Shown here piece after piece: positions 7,930-13,762 of a stretch of DNA of 31,955 nt (within the stretch, counting starts at the first letter, position 1; each line of letters begins with the position of its first letter). Source of the stretch: a virus. The notes beneath the pieces are model-generated. The model was not told the DNA's origin. It ran no database searches and saw only the letters and a list, made by a program, of their open reading frames with translations. The stretch is from positions 1 to 31,955 of IMG/VR virus record IMGVR_UViG_3300035188_000380; one strand, given 5' to 3'. A program made the translations under genes and the position numbers.

Positions 7930-7969
7930 AGTGCTTGAGTTTGAGTTGAAATAATGCTTGAGGTCAGAT
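7930..7969. promoter_or_regulatory. Divergent intergenic region, presumed site of two promoters
   Basis: This 40-base gap separates the only minus-strand gene from the rightward phosphoesterase gene, so both must be transcribed from in or near it. It is A+T-rich and contains the direct repeat ttgagt-ttgagt followed by tgaaataatg. I see no convincing sigma-70 pair, so the promoter call rests on gene orientation alone. A GAGGT sequence six to ten bases before the GTG at 7970 is a plausible ribosome binding site. Confidence 0.3.
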
Positions 7970-8719
7970 GTGACCATTGTCCAAGGCTGGAAACGTGTGA
8001 TGGCTGTCGGGTGCAGTCACGGCAACAGGGCCAACAAGGATGCATTGGCTGCTGCCCTGCTTTTTCGGGAGCAATTTAGACCCGATGAGGTGATCCACCT
8101 GGGGGACGCTTACGACCTTGCCAGCCTTCGCGCAGGCTCTTTGGCCAACCCTGACGACTCGGATCATGCGGACGACTATCTGGACGACATCGAGTGTGGT
8201 CGAGACTTTCTAAATGCCTTGAGGCCGACGGTGTTCATCCTGGGCAACCACGATCAAAGAGCTTTGAAGTACCTGCATCACCACAACACCGTGGTGCGTG
8301 GTTTTGCTGAAGCCATCTGGGATAAGATGTGTGAGCCAATCAAACGGCATGCCCGGGTGTTCATCAAACACCACGACGTCCTTCCTCGAAGCTGGTACGC
8401 GCTGGGAGGCTACAAGTGGGGCCATGGTCTACTTTACTCGGAAAACTTCCTGCGCGACACCGCAGAGACATGGGGCAACACCGTGGTGGCCCATGCGCAT
8501 CGCGCAGGCATGGCTACAGGGCGCCGCAGCGACAATCCGGTGTGTCTGTCGCCCGGGACACTGGCGGACGCGCCTTGCATGGACTACGCCCTAAAGCGAA
8601 GGGGCACGCTGGCTTGGTCGCATGGCATTGTTTTCGGCGAATACACCGACACCACCGCCCAACTCTACGTTCATCAATGGCCCCAAGGAGAAAAGCTATG
8701 GAATCTGCCGAGCTTTTAA
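7970..8719 (+). CDS. Calcineurin-like metallophosphoesterase
   Basis: 249 residues from a GTG at 7970 that has a GAGGT sequence upstream; a TTG at 7958 or an ATG at 8000 are alternatives, but the ATG would cut the first beta strand. Metallophosphoesterase motifs appear in order: GCSHGN (residues 14-19), LGDAYDL (44-50), LGNHDQR (91-97), a GH pair (KWGHG) and AHAH near residue 180. The first motif, normally D-x-H, reads C-S-H, so one metal ligand is replaced. Phage members of this family often carry Cys or Ser there, to my recollection. It is predicted to be a cytoplasmic phosphodiesterase or phosphatase acting on nucleic acid or a nucleotide; the substrate is unknown. The 3' end overlaps the next gene by 22 bases. 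Confidence 0.8.
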   Translation: MTIVQGWKRVMAVGCSHGNRANKDALAAALLFREQFRPDEVIHLGDAYDLASLRAGSLANPDDSDHADDYLDDIECGRDFLNALRPTVFILGNHDQRALKYLHHHNTVVRGFAEAIWDKMCEPIKRHARVFIKHHDVLPRSWYALGGYKWGHGLLYSENFLRDTAETWGNTVVAHAHRAGMATGRRSDNPVCLSPGTLADAPCMDYALKRRGTLAWSHGIVFGEYTDTTAQLYVHQWPQGEKLWNLPSF

Positions 8720-9294: not shown

Positions 9295-9630
9295 ATGACC
9301 ACTCTTTCCAACCTAATCACCGCCCTGATCATCGTAGAAAGCAGCGGCAACGATCAGGCCATCGGCGACAACGGACGCGCCCTCGGGCCCCTGCAGATCC
9401 ACCGCGCGGTGGTTCTGGATGTGAACCGGATCACCGGGTCGAATTACCGCTGGGAGTCTATGACCAACAGGGCGCAGGCCCGTGCGGTCTGTGAGGCCTA
9501 CCTGAAGCACTGGGGCAAGGGCAAGACGACCGAGGAGCAGGCCCGGATATGGAATGCGGGACCTCAGGGACACAAGAAGAAGACGGCAACTCAAGCCTAC
9601 TGGCTCAAAGTTCAACGCAATCTGAAATGA
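9295..9630 (+). CDS. Endolysin, lysozyme-like transglycosylase
   Basis: 111 residues. The N-terminal half has the goose-lysozyme/SLT pattern: a catalytic Glu in IIVESSGND (E15), then IGDNGRALGPLQI, in which G-x-L/P-x-Q-I forms the substrate loop, and a later A-R-x-W-N-A-G-P (residues near 84-91) matching the N-A-G motif of lytic transglycosylases. It should cleave the glycan backbone of peptidoglycan at lysis. There is no signal peptide, so release to the wall would need the holin-like proteins encoded at 26179-26531. The ATG at 9295 was chosen because the A/C-rich leader ends there and the fold starts a few residues later. Confidence 0.8.
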   Translation: MTTLSNLITALIIVESSGNDQAIGDNGRALGPLQIHRAVVLDVNRITGSNYRWESMTNRAQARAVCEAYLKHWGKGKTTEEQARIWNAGPQGHKKKTATQAYWLKVQRNLK

Positions 9631-9764
9631 CCAAACCCAAAACCATCAACGTGACACCCACCACCCACAAGGCCCTGCGAGACTACTGCCTCGCTTACGG
9701 CCTGAAAATGCAGGCAGTAGCCGACAAGGCTATCATGACATGGCTGAGAAAGGCGGCAAAGTGA
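9627..9764 (+). CDS. Small ribbon-helix-helix-like protein
   Basis: 45 residues. A beta-strand-like start (KTINVTPTTHKAL) is followed by two helices (DYCLAYGLKMQAVADKAI and MTWLRKAAK), the layout of ribbon-helix-helix repressors. It is coupled by ATGA overlap to the endolysin and by overlap to the resolvase gene. A transcription regulator of the early genes is possible but not shown. Confidence 0.5.
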   Translation: MTKPKTINVTPTTHKALRDYCLAYGLKMQAVADKAIMTWLRKAAK

Positions 9765-10216
9765 AGCGCATCCTTGCAATCGACCCGGGCCTATCGGGCG
9801 GCCTGGCTTTCTACGGCCGCAGCGGCGTGACGCTGGACGCCATGCCTGTCACCGACGCCGATGTGCGCGACCTAGTGCTCGACAGGCTGGGTGTGTCAGA
9901 CGTGGTCTACATCGAGAAGGTGGGCGGCTATGTGGGCGGCAAGGGCGCTCCCGGGTCGGCCATGTTCAACTTCGGGCGCAACGTGGGCTTCCTGCACGGC
10001 CTTATCGCAAGCACCAAGACCCGTGTGATTGAGGTGCCACCACAACGCTGGCAGAAGACGATTGGGGCCGGCACCTCAAAGACGCACGGGAATGGCTGGA
10101 AGGCCCACCTGAAGGGCTTGGCGCAGCAGAGGCAGCCCAATCTGCACATCACGCTCAAGACTGCGGACGCCGTGCTGATCCTTGAGCACGCCATGATTGC
10201 GGAGGGACTCAAATGA
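9761..10216 (+). CDS. RuvC-like Holliday junction resolvase
   Basis: 151 residues from the GTG at 9761, which overlaps the previous TGA and follows an AGGCGG sequence; an ATG at 9740 would add seven residues. The RNase H-fold acidic residues are visible: D8 in IDPGLSGG, E52 in VVYIEKV and D136 in LKTADAVLI. A KTHGNGWKAH segment near residues 107-116 contributes basic residues. The family cleaves four-way or branched DNA, which phages need to resolve recombination and replication intermediates before packaging. It starts a chain of 4-base-overlap genes running to 12998. Confidence 0.8.
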   Translation: MKRILAIDPGLSGGLAFYGRSGVTLDAMPVTDADVRDLVLDRLGVSDVVYIEKVGGYVGGKGAPGSAMFNFGRNVGFLHGLIASTKTRVIEVPPQRWQKTIGAGTSKTHGNGWKAHLKGLAQQRQPNLHITLKTADAVLILEHAMIAEGLK

Positions 10217-10416
10217 GCAAAAAACAAACTAAAGCCGAAGAAACAATCCGCCTCACACTCAAAGGGCTTCTGTCTATCTATCTACAAGAGGAAAAACTAA
10301 GTGAGGTGTACAACGCAATCGAGCTGTATTGCCGTCGCAACAACCGAGGAATAGCAATCAACGAAGATAACACATTGGACTTTGTGGAAATGCAACAAGT
10401 GGAGGAATCGAAATGA
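10213..10416 (+). CDS. Small hypothetical early protein
   Basis: 67 residues, highly charged and helical (KAEETIRLTLKGLLSIYLQEEK), with no recognised motif. The ATG overlaps the resolvase stop, and GCGGAGGGA lies just upstream as a Shine-Dalgarno site within the resolvase coding end. It belongs to the tightly overlapped early gene run. Confidence 0.6.
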   Translation: MSKKQTKAEETIRLTLKGLLSIYLQEEKLSEVYNAIELYCRRNNRGIAINEDNTLDFVEMQQVEESK

Positions 10417-10763
10417 CTAAAGAACAAACAATCGAAGCCATCCGCATCATGCAGGCATTTGTGGATGGGAAGGAAGTGCGGTATAAAGCGCCTAACAATG
10501 AATGGCTTCCAACGAATAATCCGGCTTGGAATTGGTTTGATTGCGAATACCGCATCAAACCCACCCCTGTCCTCCGCCCGTGGACTGCGGATGAAGTTCC
10601 GCTGGGGGCGTGGATGAGGAGGGAGACAGATCCGAAATTCCGCTGGTTGATACTTAATGTGGGAAATGATGATATGAGGATGGATTTCTATTTAAAGAAC
10701 GAACACTCCACCGACGGCGGCAAAACATGGCACCCGTGCGGGGTGATGGAGGAGGGGGAATGA
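10413..10763 (+). CDS. Conserved small phage protein of unknown function
   Basis: 116 residues. An N-terminal helix (IEAIRIMQAFVDGKEVRYK) is followed by a Trp-rich region (NEWLPTNNPAWNWFDCEYRIKP) and then LRPWTADEVPLGAWM. To my knowledge this I-x-x-G-x-x-V-x-Y-R ... YRIKP ... PW-x-x-x-EVP layout is common among uncharacterised phage proteins. The start overlaps the previous TGA, with GGAGG seven bases upstream. Confidence 0.65.
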   Translation: MTKEQTIEAIRIMQAFVDGKEVRYKAPNNEWLPTNNPAWNWFDCEYRIKPTPVLRPWTADEVPLGAWMRRETDPKFRWLILNVGNDDMRMDFYLKNEHSTDGGKTWHPCGVMEEGE

Positions 10764-11092
10764 GCAACCAACCAAACCCAAACGTGTTTTTCCAAGGCGA
10801 GGACATGGGAATCGGAAACTTTCCAATCAAAGGAGGAAAAATCAACGACGGAGGACCGGCGTTTCCAGAAGTCCGCGTTCGTGATGGCGACAACTACAAC
10901 GCTCCAACAAAGGTCTATTATCAAGGCATGACCCTTCGCCAGTACGCAGCCATCAAGTTGTGCGTACCTGACAGCGGGTTGCCGTGGCTGGACGATATGA
11001 TTGCGAAGTCGAGAAACTGCAACGTAGTCGATGGGACACTCGTAATGTTTAGGTCAACAGACGCATTGCTCAAAGCGAGGGAGGCGAAATGA
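10760..11092 (+). CDS. Small hypothetical early protein with KAREAK C-terminus
   Basis: 110 residues from the ATG at 10760, preceded by the strong Shine-Dalgarno GGAGGGGG. The protein contains GMTLRQYAAIKLCVPDSG, a helix seen in several small phage early proteins as GMTLRDYFAA-like. It ends in LLKAREAK; the bases coding this end supply the AGGGAGG site of the next gene. No biochemical role can be assigned. Confidence 0.65.
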   Translation: MSNQPNPNVFFQGEDMGIGNFPIKGGKINDGGPAFPEVRVRDGDNYNAPTKVYYQGMTLRQYAAIKLCVPDSGLPWLDDMIAKSRNCNVVDGTLVMFRSTDALLKAREAK

Positions 11093-11478
11093 ACGATCAT
11101 ATTCCTGACCTCACGAAAATGATCGGCGACACCCCAATATCAGACTCAACACCGCACAACGTGGCCGATCTGGGAATGCTGTGCAGGAGGTTGGAACGCG
11201 AACTCAACGCGGCCAATGAGCGCATTGAGCGGCTTCAAGCAGTCACCAATGACCCTCACGCGCTCTGGGCCAACTGGTTGCGTGGGAGCGTTGCTCTGCC
11301 GGTGGGCATCGGTGACGTAAGGGAGTATCAAGAGCGCATCAAGCGGTTGGAGGAGGCTTTAGAGTCCATTCGAGAATACTGGAACCGAGACAACAACAAT
11401 CGAGCATTGATAGACGCTTGCTGGTACGCAATCGACAAAGCGTCGGAGGCACTCGAAGCCAAGGAAGCAAAGCCGTGA
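11089..11478 (+). CDS. Coiled-coil early protein, paralogue A
   Basis: 129 residues. Residues about 13-47 (DTPISDSTPHNVADLGMLC then RRLERELNAANERIERLQ) are nearly repeated in the next gene, including an identical 42-base DNA run (11143-11184 against 11496-11537). A second heptad segment, ERIKRLEEALESI, recurs in paralogue C. It therefore looks like a two-module coiled-coil protein. It ends in LEAKEAKP, whose bases hold the Shine-Dalgarno site for the next GTG. Function is unknown; similar modular proteins are frequent in the accessory early regions of phages. Confidence 0.65.
   Translation: MNDHIPDLTKMIGDTPISDSTPHNVADLGMLCRRLERELNAANERIERLQAVTNDPHALWANWLRGSVALPVGIGDVREYQERIKRLEEALESIREYWNRDNNNRALIDACWYAIDKASEALEAKEAKP
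11142..11184 (+). repeat. Duplicated segment, copy 1 (with 11496-11537)
   Basis: Bases 11143-11184 are identical to 11496-11537 over 42 positions and code the same residues (DSTPHNVADLGMLC). Synonymous positions are unchanged, so the duplication or gene conversion is recent. Confidence 0.9.
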
Positions 11479-11687
11479 GCGACACCCCTATCTCCGACTC
11501 AACACCGCACAACGTGGCCGATCTGGGAATGCTGTGCCGCCAGCTCGAACGCAAACTTAACGCGGCTAATGACCGCATCAAGCGGCTGGAGGACGCTCTC
11601 CATCGCATTGCAAACACCGACTACCGCGGCAACCGCTCGACAGAATCACAAATCGCTTTTCAGGCGTTAACGGAGGCCAAGCCGTGA
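11475..11687 (+). CDS. Coiled-coil early protein, paralogue B
   Basis: 70 residues from a GTG at 11475 that overlaps the previous TGA. The start is fixed by alignment with paralogue A (both continue DTPISDSTPHNV) and by the AAGGAAG site upstream. It holds the shared N-terminal module plus DRIKRLEDALHRI and then a short unrelated tail ending in TEAKP. It looks like a shortened copy of the 11089 gene in which the segment between the two coiled-coil modules has been lost. Confidence 0.65.
   Translation: MSDTPISDSTPHNVADLGMLCRQLERKLNAANDRIKRLEDALHRIANTDYRGNRSTESQIAFQALTEAKP
11496..11537 (+). repeat. Duplicated segment, copy 2 (with 11143-11184)
   Basis: Second copy of the 42-base identical segment, about 353 bases downstream of the first. 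It lies at the N-terminus of paralogue B. Confidence 0.9.
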
Positions 11688-11896
11688 AGTATCGACCACC
11701 ACAACAGGGTCATTCCGCTGAGACTGCCGCAACGATAACTCGACTCAAGTACCGGATCAAGCGGTTGGAGGAGGCTCTGGGATGTGTAGTAGAGAGCTGC
11801 GATTATCTGCACCACCGAAAGAAGCATCAGCACGGATCGGGTGAACCGTGTCCAGTTGAGGAGTTAATCCGCAAAGCCAAGGAGGCCAAGCTGTGA
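11684..11896 (+). CDS. Coiled-coil early protein, paralogue C
   Basis: 70 residues from a GTG at 11684 overlapping the previous TGA, with CGGAGG upstream. It lacks the DTPISDSTPHNV module but has KYRIKRLEEALGCVV, whose DNA matches paralogue A over 21 bases (11756-11776 against 11338-11358). A Cys/His-rich part follows (CVVESCDYLHHRKKHQH then GEPCPVEE), which could bind a metal. It ends in KAKEAKL. Function is unknown. Confidence 0.6.
   Translation: MKYRPPQQGHSAETAATITRLKYRIKRLEEALGCVVESCDYLHHRKKHQHGSGEPCPVEELIRKAKEAKL
11876..11896 (+). promoter_or_regulatory. Repeated Shine-Dalgarno/stop/start junction
   Basis: The 21 bases code the end of one protein (AKEAKL), contain AAGGAGG, and finish in GTGA, where the GTG start of the next gene overlaps the TGA stop. 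An identical junction lies at 12300-12320, with four further identical bases upstream (11872-11875 and 12296-12299). Variants lie at 11458-11478, 11667-11687 and 12070-12090. Confidence 0.8.
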
Positions 11897-12090
11897 CTAT
11901 CACAATTAAGTCGTGGATTGTGCCAACACTCATCACCGTAATCCTGCTGTGCGTCATGTTCAGGCCATACCGTTCCAGTGGGCAGTATGACTTTGGAATG
12001 GTCTTTCGGCTGTTTTGGCTGATACCTATTGGAGCCGTTTGGATGGTTTACATGGGTGTACTTCTAATCATCAAGGAGGACAAGCTGTGA
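11893..12090 (+). CDS. Small two-helix membrane protein
   Basis: 65 residues from a GTG with AAGGAGG upstream. Two hydrophobic segments are visible, about residues 7-23 (WIVPTLITVILLCVMF) and 40-60 (LFWLIPIGAVWMVYMGVLLII), linked by a polar loop (RPYRSSGQYDFG). It is probably an inner-membrane protein. A holin is conceivable, but the position in the early gene run argues instead for a host-interaction role such as superinfection exclusion. It ends in KEDKL. Confidence 0.6.
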   Translation: MTITIKSWIVPTLITVILLCVMFRPYRSSGQYDFGMVFRLFWLIPIGAVWMVYMGVLLIIKEDKL

Positions 12091-12320
12091 GTGCAATGAA
12101 TTGCATTGGAACGATACTCAAACGGTTTCTTGGAATTGCGTGTTCTCATTATTGGCAACCGCTAAACGACAGTTTCCATGGCTCACATTCTCACTGGGAC
12201 GTCGCATTCAATGTTAAACGAAAATGGAAATGCATCCATTGCGGTAAGCAGACGCTTTCAGCAAATCCAATTAGCTTCATCAATCAAAATAGAAACAAAG
12301 CCAAGGAGGCCAAGCTGTGA
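12087..12320 (+). CDS. Small zinc-ribbon-like protein
   Basis: 77 residues from the GTG at 12087 (SD AAGGAGG). Candidate zinc ligands are CSH near residues 19-21, several His (HGSHSH) and a C-x-x-C knuckle, WKCIHCGKQT. The N-terminus is hydrophobic and basic (CIGTILKRFLGIAC). The C-terminus KAKEAKL is identical to that of paralogue C because the junction DNA is the same. A nucleic-acid or protein-binding role is plausible but unproven. Confidence 0.6.
   Translation: MSAMNCIGTILKRFLGIACSHYWQPLNDSFHGSHSHWDVAFNVKRKWKCIHCGKQTLSANPISFINQNRNKAKEAKL
12300..12320 (+). promoter_or_regulatory. Repeated Shine-Dalgarno/stop/start junction (second identical copy)
   Basis: Identical to 11876-11896, including AAGGAGG and the GTGA overlap. 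The genes on either side are unrelated to those at the first copy. Confidence 0.8.
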
Positions 12321-12655
12321 GCATTATCAAGATAAGCCAGTTTATCAACGAGCCGTGGCGAGACGTTGGATTGGACGCAGAGAAACGAGGGGTTGAAATC
12401 TGCCAGCGCAACGGGATTGAGAAACCGGAGGCCAACATGGTGATGATTATTGGATTGTGCGATATTGTAACCAAGCTAGAGCAGGAGAACGGCGCTTTCC
12501 GCGCCGGCAAGGAACTGGAAGAGGCCCGAGCCAAGATCGTACACCTGGAGGACCGCATCAACCGAGCCGCAACAGCGTTCTTCCGAGACGGCTCAGATGG
12601 TAAGGTTGCATCTGGAATGCTGACGATATTAGAGGAGGGGAGAAACAAACCATGA
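12317..12655 (+). CDS. Hypothetical helical early protein
   Basis: 112 residues from a GTG in the shared junction. A helical C-terminal half (KELEEARAKIVHLEDRINRAATAF) is coiled-coil-like and distantly resembles the RIKRLEEAL modules of the neighbours. No motif for catalysis is seen. The stop overlaps the next ATG, which has GAGGAGGGG upstream. Confidence 0.6.
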   Translation: MSIIKISQFINEPWRDVGLDAEKRGVEICQRNGIEKPEANMVMIIGLCDIVTKLEQENGAFRAGKELEEARAKIVHLEDRINRAATAFFRDGSDGKVASGMLTILEEGRNKP

Positions 12656-12810
12656 CATTCTCCAATGACATTCAGCGGATAATGAAAGAGGGCACTGGCC
12701 TTCGGGTATTATCTAAACAAGAGATCGGGCAAACACAACGGGCGATAAAAGAAAAGAAGGTTGAGTTTACCAGCTTTTGGAATCGCAAGCGCGGAAAGGC
12801 AACAAAATGA
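12652..12810 (+). CDS. Small basic hypothetical protein
   Basis: 52 residues from the ATG at 12652, strongly basic at the C-terminus (FWNRKRGKATK). Both ends overlap neighbours by four bases (ATGA) and a strong Shine-Dalgarno site precedes it. The tight packing is the main support. It may bind nucleic acid, but nothing specific shows this. Confidence 0.5.
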   Translation: MTFSNDIQRIMKEGTGLRVLSKQEIGQTQRAIKEKKVEFTSFWNRKRGKATK

Positions 12811-12998
12811 ACGACAAGCAGACAATCAATACGATGATGGAATACGGCGGGTCATTTGTTCGTAAACTTGGCGCTGCCGCCTATGTGGCAGACGAGGAGA
12901 ACCTTGCCAAGATCAAAGCGACATGGCCCGACTACTGGGCGAAATACAGCCGTATGGCAAAACAACTTTCAGAGGTTGAAAAACAAGCCTCTAGGTAA
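12807..12998 (+). CDS. Small hypothetical protein
   Basis: 63 residues from the ATG at 12807. It is helical and contains a pattern (ADEENLAKIKATWPDYWAKYSRMA) often seen in small phage early proteins, with a predicted amphipathic helix ending in KQLSEVEKQ. It ends the run of 4-base-overlap genes. A 23-base A/C-rich leader with no Shine-Dalgarno site separates it from the replication genes. Confidence 0.6.
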   Translation: MNDKQTINTMMEYGGSFVRKLGAAAYVADEENLAKIKATWPDYWAKYSRMAKQLSEVEKQASR

Positions 12999-13021: not shown

Positions 13022-13762
13022 ATGGGAATCACAGTATCAAAAAAACAAGGCGGCGGGAATTTTACACCCTGCCCGGAATACACAGGCCGAGCGGTCTGCA
13101 TCGACATTACTCCGCTAAAAACCTACGAGACCGAGCATGGCACCAAGCAAAAATTCAAGATCGCCTTCGAGATCGACATTCTGGACAAATCACGCAACCC
13201 GGTGCAGCCCTGGGTGATTATGACGGCACCGATGACGGCCAGCCTGCATGAGAAAGGAATCCTGACCAAGTTCCTCAAGGACTGGTATGGCCGGGCCCTA
13301 ACGGCCGAGGAGACAGTCAGCCTCGACTTGGATACATTGATCGGCCGACCAGCCACCTTGGTCATTGCCCACGAGTTGAGCGAGGACGGTTCCAGGACCT
13401 ACAGCAACATCAAGCTCATCATGCCCCACAAGAGCGGTGAGCCCCTTAAACCCTCGGGCCTGTGGGTCCGTATGCAAGACCGGCCGCCGAAGGATGACGA
13501 TAAGGCGAAGACCGTGACGCCGGCAACTGCGGCGCCGGTCAAGATCGGTGACATTAAGGTGCATGTCGGTAAGTTCCGAGGCATTGCCCTGTCGGAGCTG
13601 ACCCACGAAGCCGTGCGGGGCCTTGCCGAGCATTGGCTGCCTAAGGCCAAGGTCAATTCGGGCAAGAGCCCTGAGGACATCCTGCTGATCGGTGCTGTGA
13701 CTCAGCGCATGGAGGAGATCAGCGCACAGGAAGATCCCACCGATTCAGACGTTCCATTCTGA
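13022..13762 (+). CDS. Single-stranded DNA-binding-like replication protein
   Basis: 246 residues. The N-terminal 140 residues are beta-rich with a conserved layout (CPEYTGRAVCIDITPLK, then FEIDILDK, then IGRPATLVI) like phage ssDNA-binding proteins with an OB-type fold. A Lys/Pro-rich linker follows (PPKDDDKAKTVTPATAAP). A small C-terminal domain (HVGKFRGIALSELTHEAVRGL) resembles the FGK-x-x-G-x-x-L domain seen in RNase T-related proteins. The last nine residues, DPTDSDVPF, match the acidic D-D-x-[IV]-P-F tip by which bacterial SSB recruits partner proteins. It precedes the exonuclease, initiator and helicase genes. The leader is A/C-rich. Confidence 0.65.
   Translation: MGITVSKKQGGGNFTPCPEYTGRAVCIDITPLKTYETEHGTKQKFKIAFEIDILDKSRNPVQPWVIMTAPMTASLHEKGILTKFLKDWYGRALTAEETVSLDLDTLIGRPATLVIAHELSEDGSRTYSNIKLIMPHKSGEPLKPSGLWVRMQDRPPKDDDKAKTVTPATAAPVKIGDIKVHVGKFRGIALSELTHEAVRGLAEHWLPKAKVNSGKSPEDILLIGAVTQRMEEISAQEDPTDSDVPF

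Follow-up and report, generated by a model that had tools for sequence, protein, structure and literature searches.

Two recurring short sequences, between and within the genes of a phage small-gene array, as probable recombination seams

The locus described here raises the question of why small phage genes, several of them unrelated in sequence, should be joined one after another by nearly the same few bases. It lies in a virus record of 31,955 bases, the whole of which was analysed and is called the window below. The genes of the window include a terminase, a portal, a head protease, tail proteins, a DnaB-like helicase, a DnaQ-like exonuclease and a RuvC-like Holliday junction resolvase; a metallophosphoesterase-like gene (phrog_221) is also present at 7958-8719. 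The terminase has matches at only about 30-36% in phage records, with no close isolate found, and neither the DNA from 9.5 to 14.5 kb nor the protein of the gene starting at 11475 has a match among 50,697 phage records. The small genes, apparently accessory, form an operon-like array at 10213-12998, in which each overlaps the next by 4 bases, on the plus strand as are all features of the window given below; its neighbours are the resolvase, a conserved gene without an assigned role and the DnaQ-like exonuclease. The RuvC-like gene (9761-10216; phrog_1770, E 7e-21) is kept in relatives and serves as the upstream anchor of the array; its start is probably the GTG at 9761, judging by a GTGA overlap with the small gene before it (9627-9764), with which the chain of overlaps begins ahead of the array proper. 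The downstream anchor (13022-13762) encodes a highly conserved protein, for which no match was found in Pfam, PHROG or PDB and whose structural model is poor (mean pLDDT 46.5). Distant relatives of this protein (37-44%) sit in five metagenome-assembled genomes, labelled Opitutales, Opitutia, Verrucomicrobia and Planctomycetota (one each) and, in one case, a bacterium without a name; Verrucomicrobiota are therefore the likely hosts of this phage family.

Six consecutive gene boundaries in the array had been singled out in the original prediction, and all of them were recovered with their four-base overlaps at the positions claimed. The first (11072-11092) belongs to the ATGA class, with the overlap at 11089-11092 and only a weak seam (GCGAGGGAGGCGAAATGA). 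The other five overlap by GTGA, beginning at 11475, 11684, 11893, 12087 and 12317, and are built on a sequence termed S1, GCCAAGGAGGCCAAGCYGTGA, a module of 21-26 bases that comprises the last codons of one gene, a strong ribosome site and the stop and start of the next. S1 departs from its consensus by 2 bases at 11458-11478, 4 at 11667-11687, 0 at 11872-11896, 3 at 12070-12090 and 0 at 12296-12320, and no other copy occurs in the window, on either strand, at up to five mismatches. The two perfect copies are part of one identical stretch of 25 bases, as had been noticed, and the proteins ending at the six boundaries do terminate in AREAK, AKEAKP, TEAKP, AKEAKL, KEDKL and AKEAKL. The run of junctions is longer than the six, however, as the overlap chain spans 9627 through 12807, with the junctions outside the GTGA class being more variable. 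When codons were shuffled within genes (500 trials), any two gene ends agreed at no more than 14 of 21 bases, while the best observed matches are 21, 17, 17, 16 and 16 of 21; the likeness of the junctions is real and not due to chance. Third codon positions vary hardly more than first and second ones, and for this reason conservation of the C-terminus or of a coil at the protein level was rejected as the sole cause. The view that the DNA is conserved rather than the protein is borne out. Searches of the array genes against PHROGs and Pfam gave no match with a convincing E-value to any family of named function.

The genes between the junctions are related to one another in part. Those flanking the two identical 25-mers are indeed unrelated except for seven residues encoded by the seam itself, but the coil-family genes at 11089-11478 and 11475-11687 have a 109-nt block in common at 86% identity, and both, together with a third coil-family gene at 11684-11896, contain a second repeat that the original prediction overlooked. 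This repeat, S2, is CGCATCAAGCGGYTGGAGGAGGC, a 23-base module encoding the coiled-coil hinge RIKRLEEA, and it is exact at 11335-11357 and has one mismatch at each of 11574-11596 and 11753-11775. Across the array genes, S2 joins different N- and C-terminal modules in frame. The gene at 11089-11478 has its N module in common with the next gene, while its middle and C modules have other partners in relatives; in L124 and L078, the C module of 11475-11687 follows a different N module. The array continues with a gene for a small hydrophobic protein (11893-12090), a small gene at 12087-12320 and conserved tail genes of families 3 and 2 (12652-12998), whose junction is seamless and served as a control.

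Relatives of the array were collected through its two anchors, giving 104 loci with both, of which 78 are non-redundant; many of these sequences are related, and counts made on them are not counts of independent events. The anchors lie 406 to 4642 nt apart, and the 78 arrays display 71 different arrangements. The same array size and the same anchor identities recur in contigs of different metagenomes (e.g. L145, L146 and L147), which argues against assembly error. In total, 706 small array genes were called, falling into 69 families, 38 of which are confined to one genome; coil-family genes are the dominant kind (229 of 706). Purifying selection acts on the array genes, the families having pN/pS values of 0.03-0.49. 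Families 8 and 11, present in relatives such as L163, resemble ribbon-helix-helix and helix-turn-helix proteins below Pfam cut-offs, and are possible regulators among the cargo.

The 78 arrays contain 665 four-base overlaps, with 614 unique contexts (340 ATGA and 272 GTGA), and the consensus of the GTGA class is AAAGCCAAGGAGGCCAAGCYGTGAGC. S1 is close to being specific to the arrays: at up to three mismatches it has 141 copies in 168 kb of arrays against one in 810 kb outside. With one representative taken from each of 37 unrelated upstream contexts, the 17 bases before GTGA have a mean identity of 0.66-0.69, while flank identity is 0.29-0.30 upstream and 0.31-0.32 downstream, so sharp are the edges of the seam. 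Four-base overlaps elsewhere in the same contigs, being mechanical ORF pairs of which some are perhaps not genes, reach 0.27, and GGAGG is present in 2% of them against 81% of the GTGA array class. Exact 21-mers exceed the expectation for independent positions (4 against 0.18 and 3 against 0.35); these are small numbers, and the excess suggests that the sequence has been copied. As had been expected of related genomes, the same junction borders different genes in different genomes, and homology halts there.

A seam repeated at neighbouring genes could be explained by tandem duplication, in which a neighbour was copied along with its 3' end and the bodies then diverged while the ends stayed alike. 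The 86% block in 11089-11478 and 11475-11687 fits this explanation, as does the dominance of the coil family. For most genes that have the seam in common, however, similarity halts at the seam, and complete divergence of the bodies is incompatible with seam sites left unchanged at synonymous positions. In addition, seam copies taken from a single genome resemble one another no more closely than those of separate genomes do, and no module was found twice in one array at the clustering used. Duplication of whole genes, which the original prediction had named among the outcomes that would overturn it, is therefore very unlikely to be the main cause and was rejected as such, the likeness of most genes being limited to the seam; it may hold for 11089-11478 and 11475-11687, with their common N module.

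The main rival to recombination is that S1 is kept for translation, the same strong ribosome site and spacing serving coupled re-initiation at a weak GTG, perhaps also as the target of a regulator that binds where the array genes start, with breaks appearing at gene borders as gene-internal recombinants are lost. This would explain S1 in part. AAGGAGG lies within S1 at good spacing ahead of GTG, and the ATGA class is less conserved. In the window, a ribosome-site core precedes 10 of 10 array genes from 10213 to 12652 and is nearly limited to them, as few of about 30 other gene starts have one. Conservation beyond rRNA pairing is likewise found in the start-associated sequences of cluster K mycobacteriophages, and breaks also fall at junctions without S1. 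On the other side, the 11 positions of S1 outside the Shine-Dalgarno core are still conserved at 0.62 identity, and the seam RNA has no consistent fold beyond that of shuffled sequences, a result on which a structured RNA at the seam was also rejected. Translation also leaves S2 unexplained, with its breaks inside genes and its shared synonymous bases, as well as the near-identical cassettes that extend from seam to seam between diverged phages. As the principal reason for S1, translation or regulation is thus rather unlikely.

The positions at which homology ends bear more directly on a recombinational origin of the arrays. In pairwise array alignments, 267 of 816 right homology ends fall at 0 to +5 of the stop, against 14.2 expected (18.8-fold), while left ends exceed expectation 2-6 fold over the interval from -30 to 0. 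Breaks occur in 81% of comparisons at junctions with up to two mismatches to S1, 76% at 3-5, 34% at 6-9 and 54% at 10 or more, while the seamless tail junctions (families 4-3-2) break in 1%. S1 is thus preferred and not required, and the dependence on mismatch is not strictly graded. Of 39 distinct pairs of empty and filled sites, 7 share S1 or S2 under a strict criterion, 10 share other sequence of at least 8 bases and 22 share fewer than 8 bases.

Several pairs give clean cases. A segment of 1949 nt (8 genes) distinguishes L132 from L134 at a common 26-nt S1, AAGCCAAGGAGGCCAAGCTGTGAGCG, with flanks that are 97 and 100% identical. The backbones of the window and L134 are 75-80% identical, whereas the gene at 12087-12320 matches L134 at 97.6% from seam to seam. 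The neighbouring gene at 11893-12090, a seam-to-seam cassette common to L134 and L124, is 89% identical to its L134 counterpart, and the two genes, which adjoin in the window, are six genes apart in L134. L012 and L192 likewise have cassettes in common at 92-94%. The terminase of L012 is unrelated to the window's, the two aligning at 25% over no more than 60 residues (E 0.084). Beyond the anchored loci, 120 stretches with an exact S1 were fetched, and 42 of them lack any tested gene of the window, although those without flanking genes are perhaps mere fragments.

S2 is likewise specific to the arrays, with 138 copies inside array genes at up to four mismatches and none outside arrays, and 136 of the 138 are in the same frame. 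Its codons are far more uniform than codon usage would give (e.g. CGG 0.95 against 0.20). Homology ends are heaped at both of its edges, with 51 on the left against 9.9 expected and 124 on the right against 14. When genes are split at the hinge, 44 N modules and 48 C modules occur in 77 combinations; 282 gene pairs have the same N module but C modules that are unrelated, and the reverse holds for 77 pairs. These modules were defined by strict star clustering, as single-linkage clustering of gene halves had chained almost everything. A chimera of the window's own parts is present in L124, where the gene at 2386-2761 of its segment carries a middle module of 11089-11478 and the C module of 11475-11687, joined at a 27-base S2. 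S2 breaks lie within genes and so escape the usual explanation by survival, in which recombinants broken anywhere but at a gene border are lost. Tolerance of coils to being joined covers the breaks at S2, but not its shared synonymous bases.

Genes come and go between arrays or are exchanged, but their order hardly changes. Order was kept in 1000 of 1000 gene-subfamily observations (0.67 in shuffles) and in 2109 of 2118 module observations, and when families are grouped more loosely, 12 of 1015 observations are discordant, so that each genome seems to hold a selection from one master list with the listed order retained. Permutation is so rare that genes are evidently not inserted freely at whatever ectopic seam is present. 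This bears on a further explanation, in which S1 (and S2) would be the target of a site-specific recombinase that moves cassettes in the manner of an integron. A recurring short sequence at cassette borders with variable content between is what such an enzyme would leave. Yet no integrase match was found among the window proteins scanned, in agreement with the original prediction, the order is conserved and the seam is unstructured; two unrelated seam sequences moreover act alike. On these grounds a dedicated site-specific enzyme is extremely unlikely.

The observations to be accommodated are the reuse of both seams, their array specificity and sharp edges, breaks at both, near-identical cassettes in diverged or unrelated phages, and chimeric genes. 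From these we infer that S1 and S2 probably act in this array as substrates for short homologous recombination. As near-identical direct repeats reused across the phage population, they would allow pairing between co-infecting phages, with prophages or between copies within one genome. A crossover at S1 would swap, delete or add whole genes while leaving the stop, the ribosome site and the start in working order, and a crossover at S2 would place the front half of one gene before the back half of another, in frame. In colinear arrays such crossovers would mostly delete or exchange, and products with duplicated or reversed order would be lost. The enzyme could be an annealing-type or host recombinase, and the advantage would be a fast turnover of accessory functions. 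Several findings count against short homologous recombination at the seams: the break rate of 54% at junctions with 10 or more mismatches, the 22 of 39 site pairs with fewer than 8 shared bases, the nearly constant gene order, and the failure of seam copies within a genome to be closer than those of different genomes. To these are added the lack of independence of the counts and the negative search of the window for an annealing recombinase, although other phages with the same seam have RecT/ExoVIII-like genes. That S1 and S2 have been kept by selection as a dedicated two-level recombination grammar, because they allow whole genes and gene halves to recombine in frame with translation signals intact and so generate combinatorial diversity from genes common to unrelated phage lineages, is conceivable but doubtful. 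The earlier reading of the locus as a recombination-seam cassette array without an integrase is partly supported, in that breaks do fall at the junction; the arrays are colinear, a second seam lies inside genes, and junctions without S1 break too.

A search for an annealing recombinase in the window and in the anchored array loci found none. Several of the 42 S1-exact stretches mentioned above have RecT/ExoVIII-like genes. Three contigs of other phage lineages with the same seam, L044, L074 and L104, encode RecT-like annealing proteins, in two cases adjoining an ExoVIII-like exonuclease.

A long-standing debate on phage mosaicism sets random illegitimate joining, with selection weeding the products, against guidance by short homology at the borders of genes. 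In the array, natural exchanges are plentiful, the seam is defined and recurs, and the tail genes of families 4, 3 and 2 in the same region provide a seamless control. Breakpoints at the intragenic seam are not explicable by selection for breaks at gene borders, and the array also points to one way in which very small phage proteins may be newly built from parts.

Several known systems resemble the array in one respect or another. Integron cassette arrays are tandem small genes with a recurring short sequence between them and variable content, and in all of these respects the array is similar. It differs from them in having neither an integrase match among the window proteins scanned nor a structured attC-like site, in its conserved order, and in a recurring sequence that encodes protein and translation signals. 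The nin region of lambdoid phages is closer in layout; it is described (Kroger and Hobom 1982, as cited in PMC8022706 and PMC10695390) as small, largely dispensable early genes with ATGA overlaps, differing between relatives and holding a Holliday junction resolvase (rusA in phage L). Small, tightly packed genes with four-base overlaps of the ATGA type are found here as well. The array does not, however, consist of homologous nin genes between replication genes and a late antiterminator, its overlap sits in the longer, array-specific S1, and S2 lies inside its genes; the comparison with nin is one of layout.

In temperate phages with Rad52-like recombinases, mosaicism is homology-driven, and about 30% of recent mosaics show traces of homology (PMC3945230). 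Common sequence at the borders of exchanged segments is found in the array too, though not universally; there the bordering homology is ordinary related sequence, whereas in the array a short module, of which there are two types, is used again and again. The exchange of array modules likewise recalls domain mosaicism, in which parts of phage proteins are reshuffled, with the stress on receptor-binding, lysis and replication proteins (PMC10684548, as far as its available text extends); a reused DNA hinge in tiny accessory genes, as in the array, is not described in that text.

The closest analogue at the level of sequence is the start-associated sequence (SAS, with ESAS) of cluster K mycobacteriophages, a 13 bp repeat with a ribosome-site-like core before the starts of genes of varied families (PMC3203893). 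In the portion of that paper available, SAS is conserved also where pairing with 16S rRNA is impossible, and its authors raised recombination as a possibility; neither a pile-up of breakpoints nor an intragenic counterpart is described there, unlike what is found in the array. The SAS consensus, GGGATAGGAGCCC, is different from that of the array, and S1 is set apart by its position, as it takes up the 3' end of the gene before it, stop/start overlap included. No published description of this array was found in the open-access literature, and the occurrence of seams both between and within the genes of one array, with the amount of break evidence at both, appears to be new.
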